A stretch of DNA of 46,114 bases from Methanolobus sp. UBA32 (lineage in GTDB: Archaea; Halobacteriota; Methanosarcinia; Methanosarcinales; Methanosarcinaceae). The stretch spans positions 1 through 46,114 of the forward strand of contig DAZF01000025.1 in NCBI GenBank assembly GCA_002507205.1, given 5' to 3'. The position numbers and the translations under genes were made by a program. This document shows, piece by piece, positions 3,630 through 10,848 of this stretch. The notes beneath the pieces are model-generated. The model was not told the origin of the DNA. It worked only from the letters and a program-made list of their open reading frames with translations, and searched no databases. Every line of letters starts with the position of its first letter. Within the stretch, counting starts at the first letter, position 1.

Positions 3630-6395
3630 ATGAAAGCAGATATCAAAGTCTATGGCATGACATGCATGCATTGTCATAAGCGTGTGACTGATGCAATATC
3701 AGCCCTCGATGGTGTGAATTCTGTTGAAGTCAGCCTTGAGGATGAAAGAGCATCCGTGGAGTTCGATGCTGACAGGATTGTCCTTGAGGAGATCAAAAAG
3801 GCAGTTACCGACGCAGGATATGAAGTTGGTGAAGATGCCTGTCAGCTTCCTGATGAAGGAGAGGCTGCATGTCCAATAATAATTGATGACGTGGAACCGG
3901 AAGAAAGCAAACCGGAACCAGGAACTGTTAAGGACATTGCCTTCAAGGTTTCAGGAATGCAATGTTCTGCCTGCGCACAGAACATCGAAAAAGCCCTGAA
4001 TAAACAGGAGGGAGTAATATCGGCTTCAGTGAACCTGCCTATGGAAAGGGCTTCTGTCAGCTATGATCCTGCACTCATAAACCCTGATGAGATGGAAAAT
4101 ATCATTGATTCCATCGGCTATCATGTTGTAAAGGACAGGATAGTCCTTGAGATCGGTGGAATGAAATGTGCCGCCTGTTCCCAGAACGTTGAGAAGGTGC
4201 TCAAGAGACTGAAAGGTGTCAGCTCAGCAAGTGTCAATATCACCACAGGAAGGGCACAGGTAGAGTATAATTCATCCCTTGTCTCAATAGATGAGATAAG
4301 AAAAGCCGTGGATGGTATCGGATATTCTGCATCCCTTCCTGCTGACAGGAAGGAATCAGAAGACAGGGAAAGGAAGGAAAGGGAACAGGAGATCAGACAG
4401 CAGAGGAATAACCTGCTTATTTCTATTGCAGTCCTTATCCCGATAATGCTTGGGAATATGAGAATGATGTTCCCGGGTTTGTTCGGATTCGCACCAGCCT
4501 TGCTTTCCGACAGGAACGTACTGTTCCTGCTGGCAACCATAGTGATGGTTTTCCCCGGAAGACAGTTCTTCATTGGAACATACCGTGGTCTGAGACATGG
4601 CGTCACCGACATGAACCTGCTGATAGCCACCGGTACCGGGGCGGCTTACGTTATCAGTATTGCAGCAAGTTATCTTAATCTCGGTCCCGGCTACGAACAT
4701 GTGTATTACGACACAGCAGTGATGCTTATCACTTTCATCGTTTTCGGAAGATACCTGGAAGCGAGGGCAAAGGGGAGAACATCCGAATCCATCAAGAAAC
4801 TCATCGGTCTTCAGGCAAAGACCGCACGCATCATCGTTGCCGGTGAAGAGAAAGAAGTGCCTGTGGAAGATGTACAGGTAGATGATATAGTCTTTGTAAG
4901 ACCGGGAGAAAAGGCACCTGTGGATGGTGTTATTGTCGAGGGCTCTTCTGCCATGGACGAGTCAATGATAACAGGTGAGAGCATACCTGTGGAAAAGAAC
5001 GTCGGCGATATGGTCATCGGTTCCACGCTTAACAAATCAGGAGCACTGAAATTCAAGGCCACTAACGTTGGTGCTGATACCGCCCTTGCAAGGATAATCG
5101 AACTCGTGGAAAATGCCCAGAATTCCAAGGCACCCATACAGCGTATCGCTGATGTGGTTGCCGGTCATTTCATTCTTGTAGTACATGTTATCGCACTTGC
5201 AGCATTCTTCTTCTGGTACTTCATCGGGTATGAGAGATTCGATGTTGCACTGCATTCAGGAATAGCAAGTCCGTTCCTGTTCTCTTTGCTTATTTCCATC
5301 ACAATTCTTGTGATATCATGTCCATGTGCTGTGGGACTTGCGACACCTGCTGCTATTATGGTTGGTACTGGAAAGGGAGCTGAGAACGGCATTCTCATAA
5401 AAGGTGGTGAAGCCCTTGAGAGAACACTGAAGATAGACACCATTGTGTTCGACAAGACAGGAACTCTCACAAAAGGCAAACCTGAGCTTACAGATATTGT
5501 ACTGACTGCCGGTCATGACGAAGAAGAAATACTTGCAATTGCTGCAAGTGCTGAGAAAGGCTCCGAGCATCCCCTTGGAGAAGCCATTGTGAAGGCTGCC
5601 GGGGAAAATAAACTGGAAATAAGCAATGTAGATAATTTCAACTCCATTGCAGGACATGGTGTTGAAGCCACTATCAATGGCAATCGGATACTTCTGGGAA
5701 CCCGTAAGCTCATGGAGGACAATGATATTGACATCTCATCGCTCACTGAAAACATGGAAAATCTTGAAGCACAAGGTAAGACTGCCATGATAGTTGCAAA
5801 GGAAGGGCAGGCCATCGGTCTGGTTGCTGTTGCTGACACCCTTAAGGAAAACTCCAAAGAAGCCATTGAAAAGCTACAGAGTATGGACATTGAGGTTGTG
5901 ATGATAACCGGAGACAACCGCAGGACAGCAGATGCCATTGCATCCCAGCTTGGTATCAGGAGAGTGCTGTCAGAAGTACTCCCCGGGGACAAGGCTTCAG
6001 AGATCAGGAAGCTTCAGGAAGAAGGCAGGATCGTCGCAATGGTAGGGGATGGAATCAACGATGCACCAGCACTCACCCAATCCGACATTGGAATAGCAAT
6101 GGGAGCAGGAACCGATGTTGCAATGGAATCCGCACAAATTGTATTGATAAAGAACGACCTGCGGGATGTACTTGCATCCATAAGGTTGAGCCGCCTGACC
6201 ATGAACAAGATCAAGCAGAACATTTTCTGGGCATTCGGATACAACAGCATTGGCATTCCGCTTGCAGCCGGGATACTGTATCCGTTCATCACAAAGATAG
6301 TGATAAGTCCCGAACTGGCCGCAGCCTTCATGGCAATGAGTTCCGTATCTGTCACAACCAATTCCCTGCTGATGAAACGCAGCAGAATAAAATAA
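3630..6395 (+). CDS. copA: copper-exporting P1B-type ATPase CopA
   Basis: A 921-residue P-type ATPase that exports Cu(I) across the cytoplasmic membrane. It has three N-terminal HMA domains: CMHC (Cys12/15), CSAC (Cys112/115) and CAAC (Cys180/183). These are followed by paired helices, the TGES actuator loop, the membrane CPC motif near residue 565 that marks the P1B copper group, the phosphorylation site DKTGT near 608, SEHPLGEA in the nucleotide domain and [10 protein letters not shown] near 806. Three HMA domains is more than the usual one or two, and a spacer of about 35 acidic residues separates the first from the second. No clear Shine-Dalgarno precedes the ATG, but an AAATATA box about 30 nt upstream suggests leaderless transcription in addition to read-through from the chaperone gene. 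Confidence 0.96.
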
Positions 6396-6408
6396 AGGAG
6401 ATACTGAC

Positions 6409-6654
6409 ATGGATAAAGTTTCAGGGAACAATACTGGAAAATACGCACTAATCGCAAGCATAGTCTCTTCACTTATCCTTGTTATCATTTTTGCAATACT
6501 TTCTTTCATGGTGAACAGTGCCAGAACAGTGCCACTGTACAGTCAGGTGGATATCATTGCAGGTATGGTCTTTGTGTTCATTCTAAGCATGATAGTATCG
6601 GCTTCTGTGTGGCCGGGAATTATTGAGAAAAGAGCAAAGAACAACTCTAAATAA
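6409..6654 (+). CDS. small two-helix membrane protein
   Basis: An 81-residue protein with two hydrophobic segments, at about residues 11-33 and 46-68, and a basic C-terminus (KRAKNNSK). I do not recognise the family. AAGGAGATACTGAC precedes the ATG and the gene begins 13 nt after the copA stop, so it is translated from the same message. A role as an accessory subunit of copper export is only a guess from position. Confidence 0.72.
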   Translation: MDKVSGNNTGKYALIASIVSSLILVIIFAILSFMVNSARTVPLYSQVDIIAGMVFVFILSMIVSASVWPGIIEKRAKNNSK

Positions 6655-6672
6655 AAATGATCTGAGGAAAAC

Positions 6673-7656
6673 TCATTCCTCCAGATCCACATGAGGATTG
6701 ATATCGCATCCCGTACATGGCAGGCACATCGTATCAAAAGTATCGGCACGCAGGCCATACTCGTCCAATTTCTCTTTCAGGAAACGGTTGAGATGCAGCA
6801 ACCTTTCTGCTGATGGTCTCTCTATTATTACCTCACCCTCGCGCAATGGATGTCTTGCGGCTGCCCTGAGAATTGGTACAACTCCTATGGATACGAGTTC
6901 TTCAATACCTTTCTCAACGGACTCATCAGTTTCACCAAGACCGATTATGAAATTGGAGCAGACCTTGTTCTTTCCGAATATCTCAACGCCTTGCCTCAGT
7001 GAATCAAGCAGGAATTCAAGGTCCTGATCAGGACAGACCTTTGCGTGAATCTCACGGTCCATGGTCTCAACATTGTATTTTAGCTCGCTCGCACCAGCAG
7101 CCTTGAGCCTGCGGGTGGAATCTTCTGTAGGATATACTGAAACACCGATGGGAATATTGTATGTCTCCCTGAGCCTGCGAATGAGTTCTTCAGCCCGGTC
7201 AACCTCGTCCTCTGCGGATACTTCAACGCCTGATGTAATGGAGATTGCTTTCATTCTGCCGGTACTGTTGGCCTCTTCAATCATCTTCAGCATCTTATCC
7301 ATTGTCTTGACCTTGCCGCCGAGTTTTGGGACAGGGCAGAACTTACAGTCAAAGATACATTTCTCACACATGGTGATGAAAGCCTGGTCCGGGCAGTGAA
7401 TGAGTTCTTCTTCAATACTGCCTCTTGCGATCTCAACACCGTCCTTTCTTATCACAAGTTCCCCATCTTCCATTTCTGCATTCAGTGGAGATTCTTTTTT
7501 GACAGCTAGACGCACACGGTGCCCTCCTGAGTTAAAGAAGAAAGCAACATTGCCGGCTCCCGGTCCGGCTGTAGGAATGGTTAACCAATGAATGAGAGCA
7601 GGGTCCATGTTTACGGAACCTGTCGAGATGAGCTGTGCTTTGGTTTCTGGTTTCAT
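6673..7656 (-). CDS. radical SAM protein, biotin synthase-like
   Basis: A 327-residue radical SAM enzyme. The cluster motif CX3CX2C is at about residues 101-108 (CIFDCKFC), preceded by CEK. A second cysteine set, CLPCTGC, near the C-terminus (about residues 313-319) could hold an auxiliary iron-sulfur cluster. The middle has GVSVYP, ELKYNVET and FIIGLGETDE, as in the BioB/HydE/PylB-like branch. I cannot name the substrate. GGAG stands 5 nt before the ATG. The gene lies 52 nt downstream of the sulfite-reductase-like gene on the same strand, so the two are probably co-transcribed; a part in making or inserting that protein's cofactor is possible but unproven. Confidence 0.82.
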   Translation of the reverse strand: MKPETKAQLISTGSVNMDPALIHWLTIPTAGPGAGNVAFFFNSGGHRVRLAVKKESPLNAEMEDGELVIRKDGVEIARGSIEEELIHCPDQAFITMCEKCIFDCKFCPVPKLGGKVKTMDKMLKMIEEANSTGRMKAISITSGVEVSAEDEVDRAEELIRRLRETYNIPIGVSVYPTEDSTRRLKAAGASELKYNVETMDREIHAKVCPDQDLEFLLDSLRQGVEIFGKNKVCSNFIIGLGETDESVEKGIEELVSIGVVPILRAAARHPLREGEVIIERPSAERLLHLNRFLKEKLDEYGLRADTFDTMCLPCTGCDINPHVDLEE

Positions 7657-7708
7657 GAATTCTCCGTTACCAAATGTATGGCCGTTTTTAGTAATATACC
7701 TATACAGG

Positions 7709-8575
7709 CTATTTTTGCCGGGAATACTTTATTGTTTCCCCAAACTCATCCAGACCACGGCGGTCGATGACATCGCCAAGCCTTTCCCCTTCAAGAGCAT
7801 TTTCACGATAATAGTCAATGGTCTTTTCAAGGATATTAAATACAACTTCCTCGTTGTCTGTTCGAAGGAACATGTCGCCCATACGTGGCCTTTTACCCAC
7901 CTTGCCACCAACAAATATCGTAAAGCCCTGAGCCTTTGTTTGCATGGCATCTTTGCGGCAGGCTGAAACACATAAACCGCATGCTACACATTTATTCATA
8001 TCCAGATATAAGCTGCCGTTCTCTATTGTTATGGCAGACATCTCACAGGCTTTCTCGCACAGCCTGCACATGACACAGTTTTCCTCTATAAATAGCGGTT
8101 CTAAAAAACCCATGATACCAAAATCGTTTTCCTGTACTTTCAAACAGGATGCAGGACAACCTGTGACTGCTATTTTGAATTTGTAAGGAACCGGTTTTGC
8201 AAAGTAGAGCTCGTCTATTTTTTCGCATATACCCTGACAGTCGATAAGACCCCGTTTGCATACCCTGTTCCCCTGACATGCAACAACGGCTCTTATCTTC
8301 TTTCCTGATGCTCCGGGACCGATGTCTGCAGACATCATCTGCTCACTGGCATCCCCGGTATTATCTAAATGGATGAACGGAATCTCGATTCCCTGACGTG
8401 AGGTTATGTGCACATACCCTTTGCCGTGCTGGTCCGCAGCATCAGCTACCGCCCGGAGATAGTCTGATGTCACATTACCGCCTGCTGCATGTAAGCGCAT
8501 GGAGAAGTAGTCGTCCTGCCTCTGGGAAAGAAAACCTTTGTCCTTGAGCAGGTCTTTGTCTGTATTTTTTGCCAT
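7709..8575 (-). CDS. dissimilatory sulfite reductase-like protein (Dsr-LP type)
   Basis: A 288-residue siroheme-type reductase. The order is ferredoxin-like reductase half-domain (residues about 8-70), the siroheme/[4Fe-4S] binding motif CX5C...CX3C (Cys100, Cys106, Cys140, Cys144), and an inserted ferredoxin domain with two four-cysteine sets (Cys167/170/173/177 and Cys196/199/202/206; the usual final CP is CR in the second). The layout matches the small Dsr-like proteins of methanogens and the C-terminal half of F420-dependent sulfite reductase; whether it reduces sulfite, nitrite or something else cannot be told from sequence. ATG at 8575 is chosen; GTG at 8584 is the alternative. A gene for an FrhB-like electron donor diverges 250 nt away. 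Confidence 0.85.
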   Translation of the reverse strand: MAKNTDKDLLKDKGFLSQRQDDYFSMRLHAAGGNVTSDYLRAVADAADQHGKGYVHITSRQGIEIPFIHLDNTGDASEQMMSADIGPGASGKKIRAVVACQGNRVCKRGLIDCQGICEKIDELYFAKPVPYKFKIAVTGCPASCLKVQENDFGIMGFLEPLFIEENCVMCRLCEKACEMSAITIENGSLYLDMNKCVACGLCVSACRKDAMQTKAQGFTIFVGGKVGKRPRMGDMFLRTDNEEVVFNILEKTIDYYRENALEGERLGDVIDRRGLDEFGETIKYSRQK

Positions 8576-8825
8576 TTGGGTCACTTTCTGTTCCAGTTGA
8601 TATGGAATTTACTTGAAACGCATGTAAATAGTGAAGGGAGATGAAGGCTCTAATATTGCACGAGATATTGTAAAAACGTTTTGGAAAATATCAAATCAAT
8701 ACTAATATACAATGAATAATCATTACCATGCGAACCTTCATTATTATTTGATTCAATTTTTGTTTTATACCATAAGAACAATGTAGCATTCCTAACAAGG
8801 ACATCCGTGATCCTGGGAGATTGAG

Positions 8826-9986
8826 ATGCCTATTGATCCTATATGTAAGAAAATAGTCCCCGAGGACACTCCGTGTAATACAGAATACGGAGGAAAAAGG
8901 TACCATTTTTGTTCAGACTGGTGCCAGGTTAAATTCGAGCACCTTGAAAAAAGCGTTATCAGAATGAAGAGATCCATCCCTGAAAAAGAGCGCATATCTT
9001 TTGGAAAACTCAGGAAAGATATAATCAAGCCAGGAATCTGTACCTTATGTGGAGCCTGTTCAGCAACCTGTGAATCCATAGCTATCAAAAACGATCAGCC
9101 TACTCTTGTTGATAAATGTACAGCATGTGGTGTGTGTTATAACCAGTGCCCCCGAACTATTACCACTGAGGAAGGATTGATCGGAAAACTGCGGAATGCT
9201 TACAGTGCACGCTCGGCTATGCCTGACATAAAAGGCCAGGACGGAGGAGTTGTAACTTCGATGCTTGCCTATGCTCTTGAAGAAGGACTTATTGACTGTG
9301 CAATCGTCACTAAAAAGTCGGAAGAAGAGCCATGGAAACCAGTGCCCATGATTGCAAGGACCTATGAGGACCTGCTGGAATCATCAGGTAGTATGTACAG
9401 CCACAGCATGACGATGAGTGCATTGATGAGCGCCATCAAACAGGGTTTGAGAAGTATCGCTTTTGTGGGTCCAAGCTGCAATATCGATGCGGTTACCAAG
9501 ATGCAAAAGAGCCCATATGGTTTTTTGAATCTCTTCATGAGAGCAAATATATTAAAAATGGGACTTTTCTGCATGGATACATTCTATTACGAGGGAATTA
9601 AGGATTTTGTGGAAAGTAAGAACATTCGCCTTGAAGACATAGAATCCATGAAGATCCGCAAAGGCCAGTTCGAGTTCCATACCCCTGAAGAACTAAAGGT
9701 ATATCCACTCCATGAGCTGGACATGCACAGGAGCAGTTCATGTAAATTCTGCACGGATATGGCTTCTGAGAATGCCGATATATCTTTTGGCGGTGTTGGT
9801 ACGCCACAGGGATGGACTACGGTCATTGCCCGCTCCGGCCTGGGATACGAGTTGTACAATGAAGCTGTGGATAATGGATATATTGATTCACACCTGCTGG
9901 AAGAGAAAGAGATGAAGGGTGCTCTGAATCTTGCAAAGATGAAGAAGATCCAGATGTATTCACTCAACCGCAGGCAGAATATTTGA
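8826..9986 (+). CDS. YHS domain fused to F420-binding FrhB-like subunit
   Basis: A 386-residue fusion. Residues 1-45 form a YHS metal-binding domain (DPICKK, then YHFCSDWC; Cys7, Cys29, Cys33). Residues 70-110 are a two-cluster ferredoxin domain (Cys72/75/78/82 and Cys98/101/104/108). The rest is the coenzyme F420 hydrogenase/dehydrogenase beta subunit fold, with GGVVTSMLAYALEEGLID, FVGPSCNIDA and the later SCKFCTD cluster motif. It should oxidise F420H2 with FAD and pass electrons through its clusters. FpoF/FqoF are similar but lack the YHS part. GGGAGATTGAG sits before the ATG. The divergent Dsr-like neighbour is a plausible acceptor: the two together cover the domains of F420-dependent sulfite reductase. 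Confidence 0.85.
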   Translation: MPIDPICKKIVPEDTPCNTEYGGKRYHFCSDWCQVKFEHLEKSVIRMKRSIPEKERISFGKLRKDIIKPGICTLCGACSATCESIAIKNDQPTLVDKCTACGVCYNQCPRTITTEEGLIGKLRNAYSARSAMPDIKGQDGGVVTSMLAYALEEGLIDCAIVTKKSEEEPWKPVPMIARTYEDLLESSGSMYSHSMTMSALMSAIKQGLRSIAFVGPSCNIDAVTKMQKSPYGFLNLFMRANILKMGLFCMDTFYYEGIKDFVESKNIRLEDIESMKIRKGQFEFHTPEELKVYPLHELDMHRSSSCKFCTDMASENADISFGGVGTPQGWTTVIARSGLGYELYNEAVDNGYIDSHLLEEKEMKGALNLAKMKKIQMYSLNRRQNI

Positions 9987-10041
9987 GAGGCATAATGCAA
10001 AAACCTCTTCATTTTTAAGCAAAGTCGCACAATATCCTTTC

Positions 10042-10848
10042 ATGACATTCTATGATTACGTCCACGGTTACTCCGAAAGAGAATCTGTCCGTCTCAGCGA
10101 CCAGGCAAACACACTGGAAGAACTCCTGCACAGCGATACAAAATACCCCGCAGGCAGTAAAGTGCTTGAGGCCGGATGTGGTATAGGTGCACAGACAGTC
10201 ATCCTTTCAAAGAACAGCCCCCAGGCACAGATAACATCCATTGATATATCAGAGGACTCCTTGAACAAAGCTAAAGAACGTACCGCAAAAGAGGGAGTTA
10301 CAAATGTGGACTTTCGTGTGGAAAGCATCTTCGACCTCCCATTTGAGAATGAGAGTTTTGACCACGTTTTTGTCTGCTTCGTGCTCGAGCACCTCAAAGA
10401 ACCAGTTCAGGCTCTTGCAAACCTGCGCAAAGTGCTCAAAAAAGGCGGCACCATCACAGTAATAGAAGGCGACCACGGCTCATGTTTCTTCCATCCGCAG
10501 ACCGAGGACGCTGTGAAAGCCTGGAACAGCCTTGTTGAAGTGCAGGCAAGGCTTGGAGGAAATTCACTTATCGGCAGGCAGGTTTATCCGCTTATCAAAC
10601 AGGCAGGCTTTTCCGACATTACTGTTTCTCCCCGTATGGCCTACAGTGATTCCAGCCGTCCGCACATGGAGGAAGGTTTTGTCAGAAAGACCATCATCCC
10701 AATGGTGGAAGGTATCAGGAAGGATGCAATTGAGATGGGTATTATTGAGGCAGAGATCTTTGACAGGGGAATCGAGGATCTGCACAGGACAGCGGCGGAG
10801 TACGGGACTTTTAATTATATATTCTTTAAGGGTGTGGGGAGGAAATGA
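10042..10848 (+). CDS. class I SAM-dependent methyltransferase
   Basis: A 268-residue Rossmann-fold methyltransferase. Motif I is VLEAGCGIGAQT (about residues 41-52), the acidic end of strand 2 is TSIDIS, and FDHVFVCFVLEHLKEP is motif II/post-motif as in the UbiE/Methyltransf_11 group. The substrate cannot be told; small-molecule or cofactor methylation is most likely. No clear ribosome site lies before the ATG, so the message may be leaderless. It is 55 nt downstream of the YHS-FrhB gene on the same strand, and a tandem regulator gene converges from the right. Confidence 0.85.
   Translation: MTFYDYVHGYSERESVRLSDQANTLEELLHSDTKYPAGSKVLEAGCGIGAQTVILSKNSPQAQITSIDISEDSLNKAKERTAKEGVTNVDFRVESIFDLPFENESFDHVFVCFVLEHLKEPVQALANLRKVLKKGGTITVIEGDHGSCFFHPQTEDAVKAWNSLVEVQARLGGNSLIGRQVYPLIKQAGFSDITVSPRMAYSDSSRPHMEEGFVRKTIIPMVEGIRKDAIEMGIIEAEIFDRGIEDLHRTAAEYGTFNYIFFKGVGRK

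Follow-up and report, generated by a model that had tools for sequence, protein, structure and literature searches.

In F420-dependent sulfite reductase (Fsr), a single polypeptide joins an F420-reductase half to a sulfite reductase half, and the relevant part of PMC10229431 describes a loop, residues 171–189, that forms a platform for both ferredoxin domains and supplies Glu180 to cluster 3. Group III Dsr-like proteins (Dsr-LPs) are presented in the relevant part of Susanti and Mukhopadhyay 2012 (PMC3448663) as free-standing, with a siroheme-cluster motif, two further [4Fe-4S] motifs and, in subgroup d, all four Arg/Lys residues; part of a 2018 paper (PMC6286981) calls them biochemically uncharacterised. 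PMC3448663 also puts forward, in the part that concerns haloarchaea, a putative two-gene F420-dependent sulfite reductase (aFsr) composed of a sulfite reductase subunit and a homolog of the N-terminal half of Fsr (Fsr-N). Finally, the zeta subunit of the F420-reducing carbon monoxide dehydrogenase (CODH) of Ca. Ethanoperedens (8riu_B) has a two-cluster ferredoxin followed by an F420-reductase domain. We analysed a stretch of Methanolobus sp. UBA32 DNA (GCA_002507205.1, contig DAZF01000025.1, positions 1–46,114 of the forward strand; the window, 46,114 nucleotides in all) in which a Dsr-LP gene is divergent from a gene for a protein with a YHS domain, a two-cluster ferredoxin and an FrhB region (YHS-FrhB), with a gap of 250 nt between them (8576..8825). 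We consider that these are probably two separate redox enzymes whose genes became neighbours in a Methanolobus-centred clade.

Domains and ligand residues of the two proteins

The open reading frame of the Dsr-LP spans 7709–8584 if read from a GTG at 8584. Its homologs begin at the ATG at 8575, which is most likely the start, and the resulting 288-residue protein (7709..8575, minus strand) is a predicted free-standing siroheme sulfite/nitrite reductase, with Pfam matches to NIR_SIR (6.5e-35), NIR_SIR_ferr (3.8e-18) and Fer4 (1.9e-11). In 288-residue numbering, the siroheme-cluster motifs are CX5C (C100/C106) and CX3C (C140/C144), at 8144..8278 on the minus strand, and the inserted ferredoxin domain (7958..8077, minus strand) runs from the first to the last of eight cysteines (C167, C170, C173, C177, C196, C199, C202 and C206); both motifs and all eight insert cysteines were invariant in 16/16 aligned sequences, drawn from the 120 matches listed of 584. 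By phmmer the protein matched the C-terminal half of Fsr (7npa, 3.1e-43), a homology far beyond chance. R30, R98, K135 and K137 (291-residue numbering) align with R355, R423, K460 and K462 of MjFsr, which Jespersen et al. name, in the relevant part of PMC10229431, as the four residues that bind sulfite, and the counterpart of MjFsr Arg388 is retained together with all four siroheme-cluster cysteines, as mapped via the phmmer alignments. Retention of the four Arg/Lys residues is the group IIId pattern set out in the corresponding part of PMC3448663; it is unlike the pattern of FsrII, in which, according to part of PMC9295563, these residues are substituted and which reduced nitrite and not sulfite with F420H2. 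The same paper is the source for siroheme production in Methanosarcina acetivorans. Judged by its cysteine motifs, its ferredoxin insert and the subgroup d Arg/Lys residues, the protein is a group III Dsr-LP, and it differs from the published members in having, in one clade, a divergent YHS-FrhB neighbour. Its best NCBIfam model was AsrC (TIGR02912), an identity that we rejected: the score of 169.1 bits falls short of the 324.1 bits that the family requires, and the names AsrA and AsrB were absent among the six flanking proteins scanned.

YHS-FrhB (386 residues; 8826..9986, plus strand) opens with a YHS domain, residues 3–39 (C7, C29 and C33; 8832..8942, plus strand), which scored 41.4 bits with PF04945, above the gathering cut-off of 30.3 bits. 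It continues with two [4Fe-4S] motifs from C72 to C108 (9039..9149, plus strand), whose eight cysteines were invariant in 22/22 aligned sequences drawn from the 120 matches listed of 603, and ends with the FrhB_FdhB N and C domains, residues 125–359 (9198..9902, plus strand; 3.8e-27 and 2e-40, respectively). The cluster-1 cysteines C218, C249, C306 and C309 were all present in an alignment with MjFsr. Its top phmmer match was 8riu_B (2.3e-53), followed by the N-terminal half of Fsr (7np8, 4.7e-52). A fold comparison gave the same order, the nearest structures to the YHS-FrhB model being the F420 subunits of F420-reducing CODH, with 8riu_B as the top match, and of hydrogenase, ahead of Fsr; this comparison barely tested the YHS and ferredoxin parts, and the models were of middling confidence (mean predicted local distance difference test score 71.7 for the Dsr-LP with the 16-sequence alignment and 69.4 for YHS-FrhB with the 22-sequence alignment). 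The domain make-up read by the first-pass annotation, namely a siroheme-type reductase with CX5C, CX3C and an eight-cysteine ferredoxin insert facing a YHS, two-cluster ferredoxin and FrhB protein, was therefore borne out by the Pfam scores and the invariant cysteines; its view that the two genes jointly hold the domain set of Fsr agrees with the matches to both Fsr halves.

The pair thus conserves the sulfite pocket, the siroheme-cluster ligands and the cluster-1 cysteines of Fsr. By contrast, it consists of two divergent genes instead of one polypeptide and brings an extra YHS domain. Moreover, the stretch corresponding to the 171–189 docking loop of Fsr is ten residues shorter in YHS-FrhB, with an Asn aligned where Fsr has Glu180; the docking loop and the Glu180 ligand are thereby absent, and a regular fourth ferredoxin cysteine, C101, takes the place of the latter. 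Thirty residues separate the cluster-1 cysteines, against 40 in Fsr, as judged from a pairwise sequence alignment only. The two-gene idea is shared with aFsr, for which it was already published with another sulfite reductase subunit: the aFsr subunit is of the aSir type, whereas that of the window is of the Dsr type and nearest to the C-terminal half of Fsr, and the part of PMC3448663 that treats aFsr does not mention YHS. Likewise, the CODH zeta subunit is bound to CODH, and its domain list in the relevant part of PMC11493965 does not include YHS; among the six proteins scanned beside the window pair there was no CODH. Our literature searches did not find a description of the YHS-FrhB architecture. 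It is the new element of the locus, the Dsr-LP belonging to a known group, and on sequence grounds it is an F420 enzyme whose domain arrangement is conserved across Methanosarcinaceae, ANME-2 and Methanoperedens.

A separate observation concerns codon 341 of YHS-FrhB, which is a Tyr codon in the window and in the Methanococcoides loci L027, L028 and L033, and an in-frame TAG in some Methanococcoides, with six genomes flagged (G016, G037–G040 and G044; loci L021 and L172–L176). The frame past the TAG is kept to the end of the gene in all six, and pyrrolysine read-through is possible.

Distribution, linkage and history of the pair

A contig scan with the YHS-FrhB alignment returned at least 80 loci, from Methanosarcinaceae, ANME-2, Methanoperedens and Asgard archaea, and 150 of the 151 matched stretches encode relatives; the Asgard matches begin only at about residue 36. 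By tblastn, a Dsr-LP was present in 8/80 scan loci and adjoined YHS-FrhB in seven (L001, L002, L007, L009, L010, L030 and L072), while the Dsr-LP of L016 lies ~6 kb from YHS-FrhB and is merely 50% identical.

To avoid picking loci by linkage, we turned to 111 genomes from the family to which the nearest relative belongs, in which absences count as weak evidence since genome completeness was not given. At E<=1e-60 there were 82 Dsr-LP matches, spread over 67 genomes; YHS-FrhB, at E<=1e-70, gave 85 matches in 79 genomes. Window-type Dsr-LPs, defined by at least 65% identity, occurred in 16 of the 111 genomes, all within one Methanolobus-centred clade, and the matches of at most 57% identity (n=66) were always at least 6.3 kb from YHS-FrhB. 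YHS-FrhB lay beside a window-type Dsr-LP in 14 of its 79 genomes and adjacency was missing in 65, of the same 79 genomes 23 having no Dsr-LP at all at the above threshold. The first-pass annotation had named co-occurrence and adjacency in relatives as the check on its proposal of a two-piece enzyme, and this result went against it, linkage being limited to one clade; synteny as grounds for a dedicated pair was rejected, as it fails outside that clade. Even among the window-type genomes, two have no adjacent YHS-FrhB. In G070, the Dsr-LP (65%) and YHS-FrhB are ~1 megabase apart. In G063, the Dsr-LP is followed by the radical SAM gene that in the window lies 52 nt downstream of it on the same strand (6673..7656, minus strand), and a 225-residue gene, methyltransferase-like as judged by eye, occupies the place of YHS-FrhB, which was unmatched in this assembly, whose contig ends ~1.2 kb past the Dsr-LP. 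We also considered that the pair replaces one-chain Fsr; this was set aside because Fsr (E<=1e-90) was present in 2/16 window-type genomes versus 22/95 others, which is not a clear pattern of replacement.

The YHS-FrhB tree (69 rows, built by a quick method that left 20 of the 66 inner branches open) excluded sequences below 300 residues, merged identical ones and had 20 of 89 rows thinned by hand, none of them linked to a Dsr-LP; the length limit is the reason why the cut-off linked copy of G007 is absent. In this tree, linkage needs four changes, which could be one gain and three losses, for instance, and all of them fall inside one 23-row Methanolobus-centred clade. The nine unlinked rows of that clade retain YHS-FrhB with a radical SAM gene within 4 kb and without a Dsr-LP, and in G064, which falls among the linked rows, no Dsr-LP stands between YHS-FrhB and the radical SAM gene, both of which are present: within this clade, the radical SAM gene is the older neighbour of YHS-FrhB. 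Six genomes (G004, G006, G007, G059, G064 and G069) carry two YHS-FrhB copies, and the unlinked second copies that could be placed (L016 and L177–L180) group apart from the others, together with Methanomethylovorans. The Dsr-LP tree (38 rows, midpoint-rooted, no Fsr outgroup, two of three unassigned rows repeating others) shows the window type as a single clade (100/99), neighboured by a clade rich in Methanosarcina loci and often beside azlC (98/93), with a clade of cys operons (98/94) more distant.

These cys operons bear on the function of a Dsr-LP by itself. A paralogous Dsr-LP adjoins a CysH-type gene, with no FrhB, in seven loci: according to BLAST clustering, the gene order is Dsr-LP, CysH, CysD, CysN in L152, L154, L155 and L156, and Dsr-LP and CysH followed by a different gene in L164, L169 and L171. 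The neighbours were confirmed with hidden Markov models (HMMs) in one locus, L155, which encodes an APS/PAPS reductase, CysD, CysN, an SsuA-family binding protein and a CysP-like permease. Such neighbours indicate assimilatory sulfite reduction without an F420 module, which argues that a free-standing Dsr-LP of this type is able to serve assimilation with no adjoining F420 subunit. One genome, G057, carries both a linked pair and a cys-operon Dsr-LP. No report of this arrangement was found in the relevant parts of PMC6286981 and PMC3448663, the supplements being outside the search. Part of PMC12138975 reports that a group III Dsr-LP is upregulated on long sulfide exposure in Methanoperedens and cites one that confers sulfite resistance in M. 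maripaludis; both are compatible with a sulfite role.

As a side observation, another type of Dsr-LP adjoins an azlC-family gene in six loci (L143–L146, L148 and L157), five of which also have an azlD-family gene; the families were HMM-confirmed in L143 only.

Separate enzymes or one reductase

Because the Dsr-LP and YHS-FrhB genes are usually apart in relatives, two separate enzymes are likelier than one two-piece enzyme. We infer that the Dsr-LP would take electrons from a ferredoxin-type donor and pass them through the two [4Fe-4S] clusters of its insert to the siroheme-[4Fe-4S] centre, where sulfite, possibly nitrite, would be reduced for detoxification or assimilation. YHS-FrhB may act in Methanosarcinales as a general F420H2:Fe-S oxidoreductase, in which F420H2 would reduce flavin adenine dinucleotide. 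From there, cluster 1 and then the N-terminal pair of clusters would relay the electrons, either to a partner protein or to free ferredoxin; the YHS domain presumably binds a metal or aids docking. In genomes that have both proteins, YHS-FrhB may also pass electrons directly to the Dsr-LP, but this would not be what preserves either gene.

Several observations weigh against this interpretation. The divergent adjacent pair is kept in 14 of the 16 genomes with a window-type Dsr-LP, with 120–273 nt between the matches; it persists in L166–L168 despite genes inserted between the Dsr-LP and the radical SAM gene, and in G007 and G069 beside a differently placed YHS-FrhB allele and with a shorter intergenic region. 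Furthermore, Dsr-LPs of any type and YHS-FrhB co-occur above chance in the 111 genomes (both in 56, YHS-FrhB alone in 23, Dsr-LP alone in 11, neither in 21; Fisher p=5e-4, kinship uncorrected), which speaks for some link, though its source could also be common descent and the small size of genomes with neither. Lastly, we did not identify what donates electrons to the Dsr-LP. The 14/16 pairs and the co-occurrence, together with the Fsr domain set and the full complement of ligand residues, speak for a dedicated two-subunit F420H2-dependent sulfite/nitrite reductase. In this reading, YHS-FrhB would oxidise F420H2, and the Dsr-LP would receive the electrons at its ferredoxin insert from the N-terminal clusters of YHS-FrhB, as happens inside the Fsr dimer. 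We nevertheless consider it unlikely: adjacency is lacking in most YHS-FrhB genomes and in G063 and G070, the docking loop and the cluster-3 Glu are absent, Dsr-LP paralogs sit in cys operons without FrhB, and the pair is no clear substitute for Fsr. Thus, of the two-piece F420H2-driven reductase proposed in the first-pass annotation, the domains, the catalytic residues and the 14/16 pairs stood, and the linkage beyond one clade and the Fsr-like docking features did not. A more specific, and likewise doubtful, version is that, in the Methanolobus-centred clade, a group IIId Dsr-LP captured a pre-existing YHS-FrhB as its donor, giving a two-subunit F420H2-dependent sulfite reductase that would represent a pre-fusion step of Fsr, with YHS docking in place of the Fsr loop; if true, the working pair would show a route from free parts to Fsr. 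Coupling of the two proteins is possible, but the wider pattern favours independent enzymes.

The nearest structural relatives of YHS-FrhB raise the idea that it serves a fixed partner encoded elsewhere (CODH, hydrogenase or a metal-handling system), its place here being incidental. We regard this as improbable, as no partner gene is conserved beside YHS-FrhB, the commonest other families occurring in 21 of the 81 clustered loci, many of which are short contigs, and coupled F420-reductase activity of CODH was undetected in extracts of related methanogens, according to part of PMC11493965. It is more improbable still that the Dsr-LP and the co-oriented radical SAM gene work as a unit, for example in maturation or in a sulfur-related step. 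The two genes are close and on the same strand, G063 holds both together without YHS-FrhB, and over 12 loci Dsr-LP distances correlated better with those of the radical SAM gene (r=0.91) than with those of YHS-FrhB (r=0.64). However, this closer tracking rests on one locus, since without L002 the values were 0.82 and 0.79, respectively. In addition, the radical SAM gene adjoins YHS-FrhB without a Dsr-LP in Methanohalophilus and in many Methanolobus loci, other genes intervene in L166–L168, and the radical SAM family had generic names only, both among the 120 matches listed of 2048 and in the NCBIfam scan.

Intergenic region and a flanking gene

YHS-FrhB is preceded by a 23-nt leader, AAGGACATCCGTGATCCTGGGAG (8797..8819, plus strand), which ends six bases upstream of its start. 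The leader is the same, save one C/T, in 12 of the 14 Dsr-LP-linked genomes and in the unlinked loci L003, L075 and L126, and it was not found in the remaining YHS-FrhB leaders among those listed. When 11 genomes were searched with up to two mismatches, it occurred as a single copy in eight and was absent from three. A role as an operator or in translation is possible. The leader RNA folds no better than shuffled sequences (160/200 and 126/200 shuffles were equally good), and Rfam gave zero matches at E<=1 across 6300–10200.

Upstream of the TATA-like stretch of YHS-FrhB, the window also has an inverted repeat, AATAATCAT / ATTATTATT (8715–8723 and 8740–8748), whose counterpart in L009 has 14-nt arms (93%). 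Farther away, at 3630–6395, lies a gene for a CopA-type P-type ATPase with three HMA domains; this family has members close to YHS-FrhB in 19 of the 81 clustered loci.
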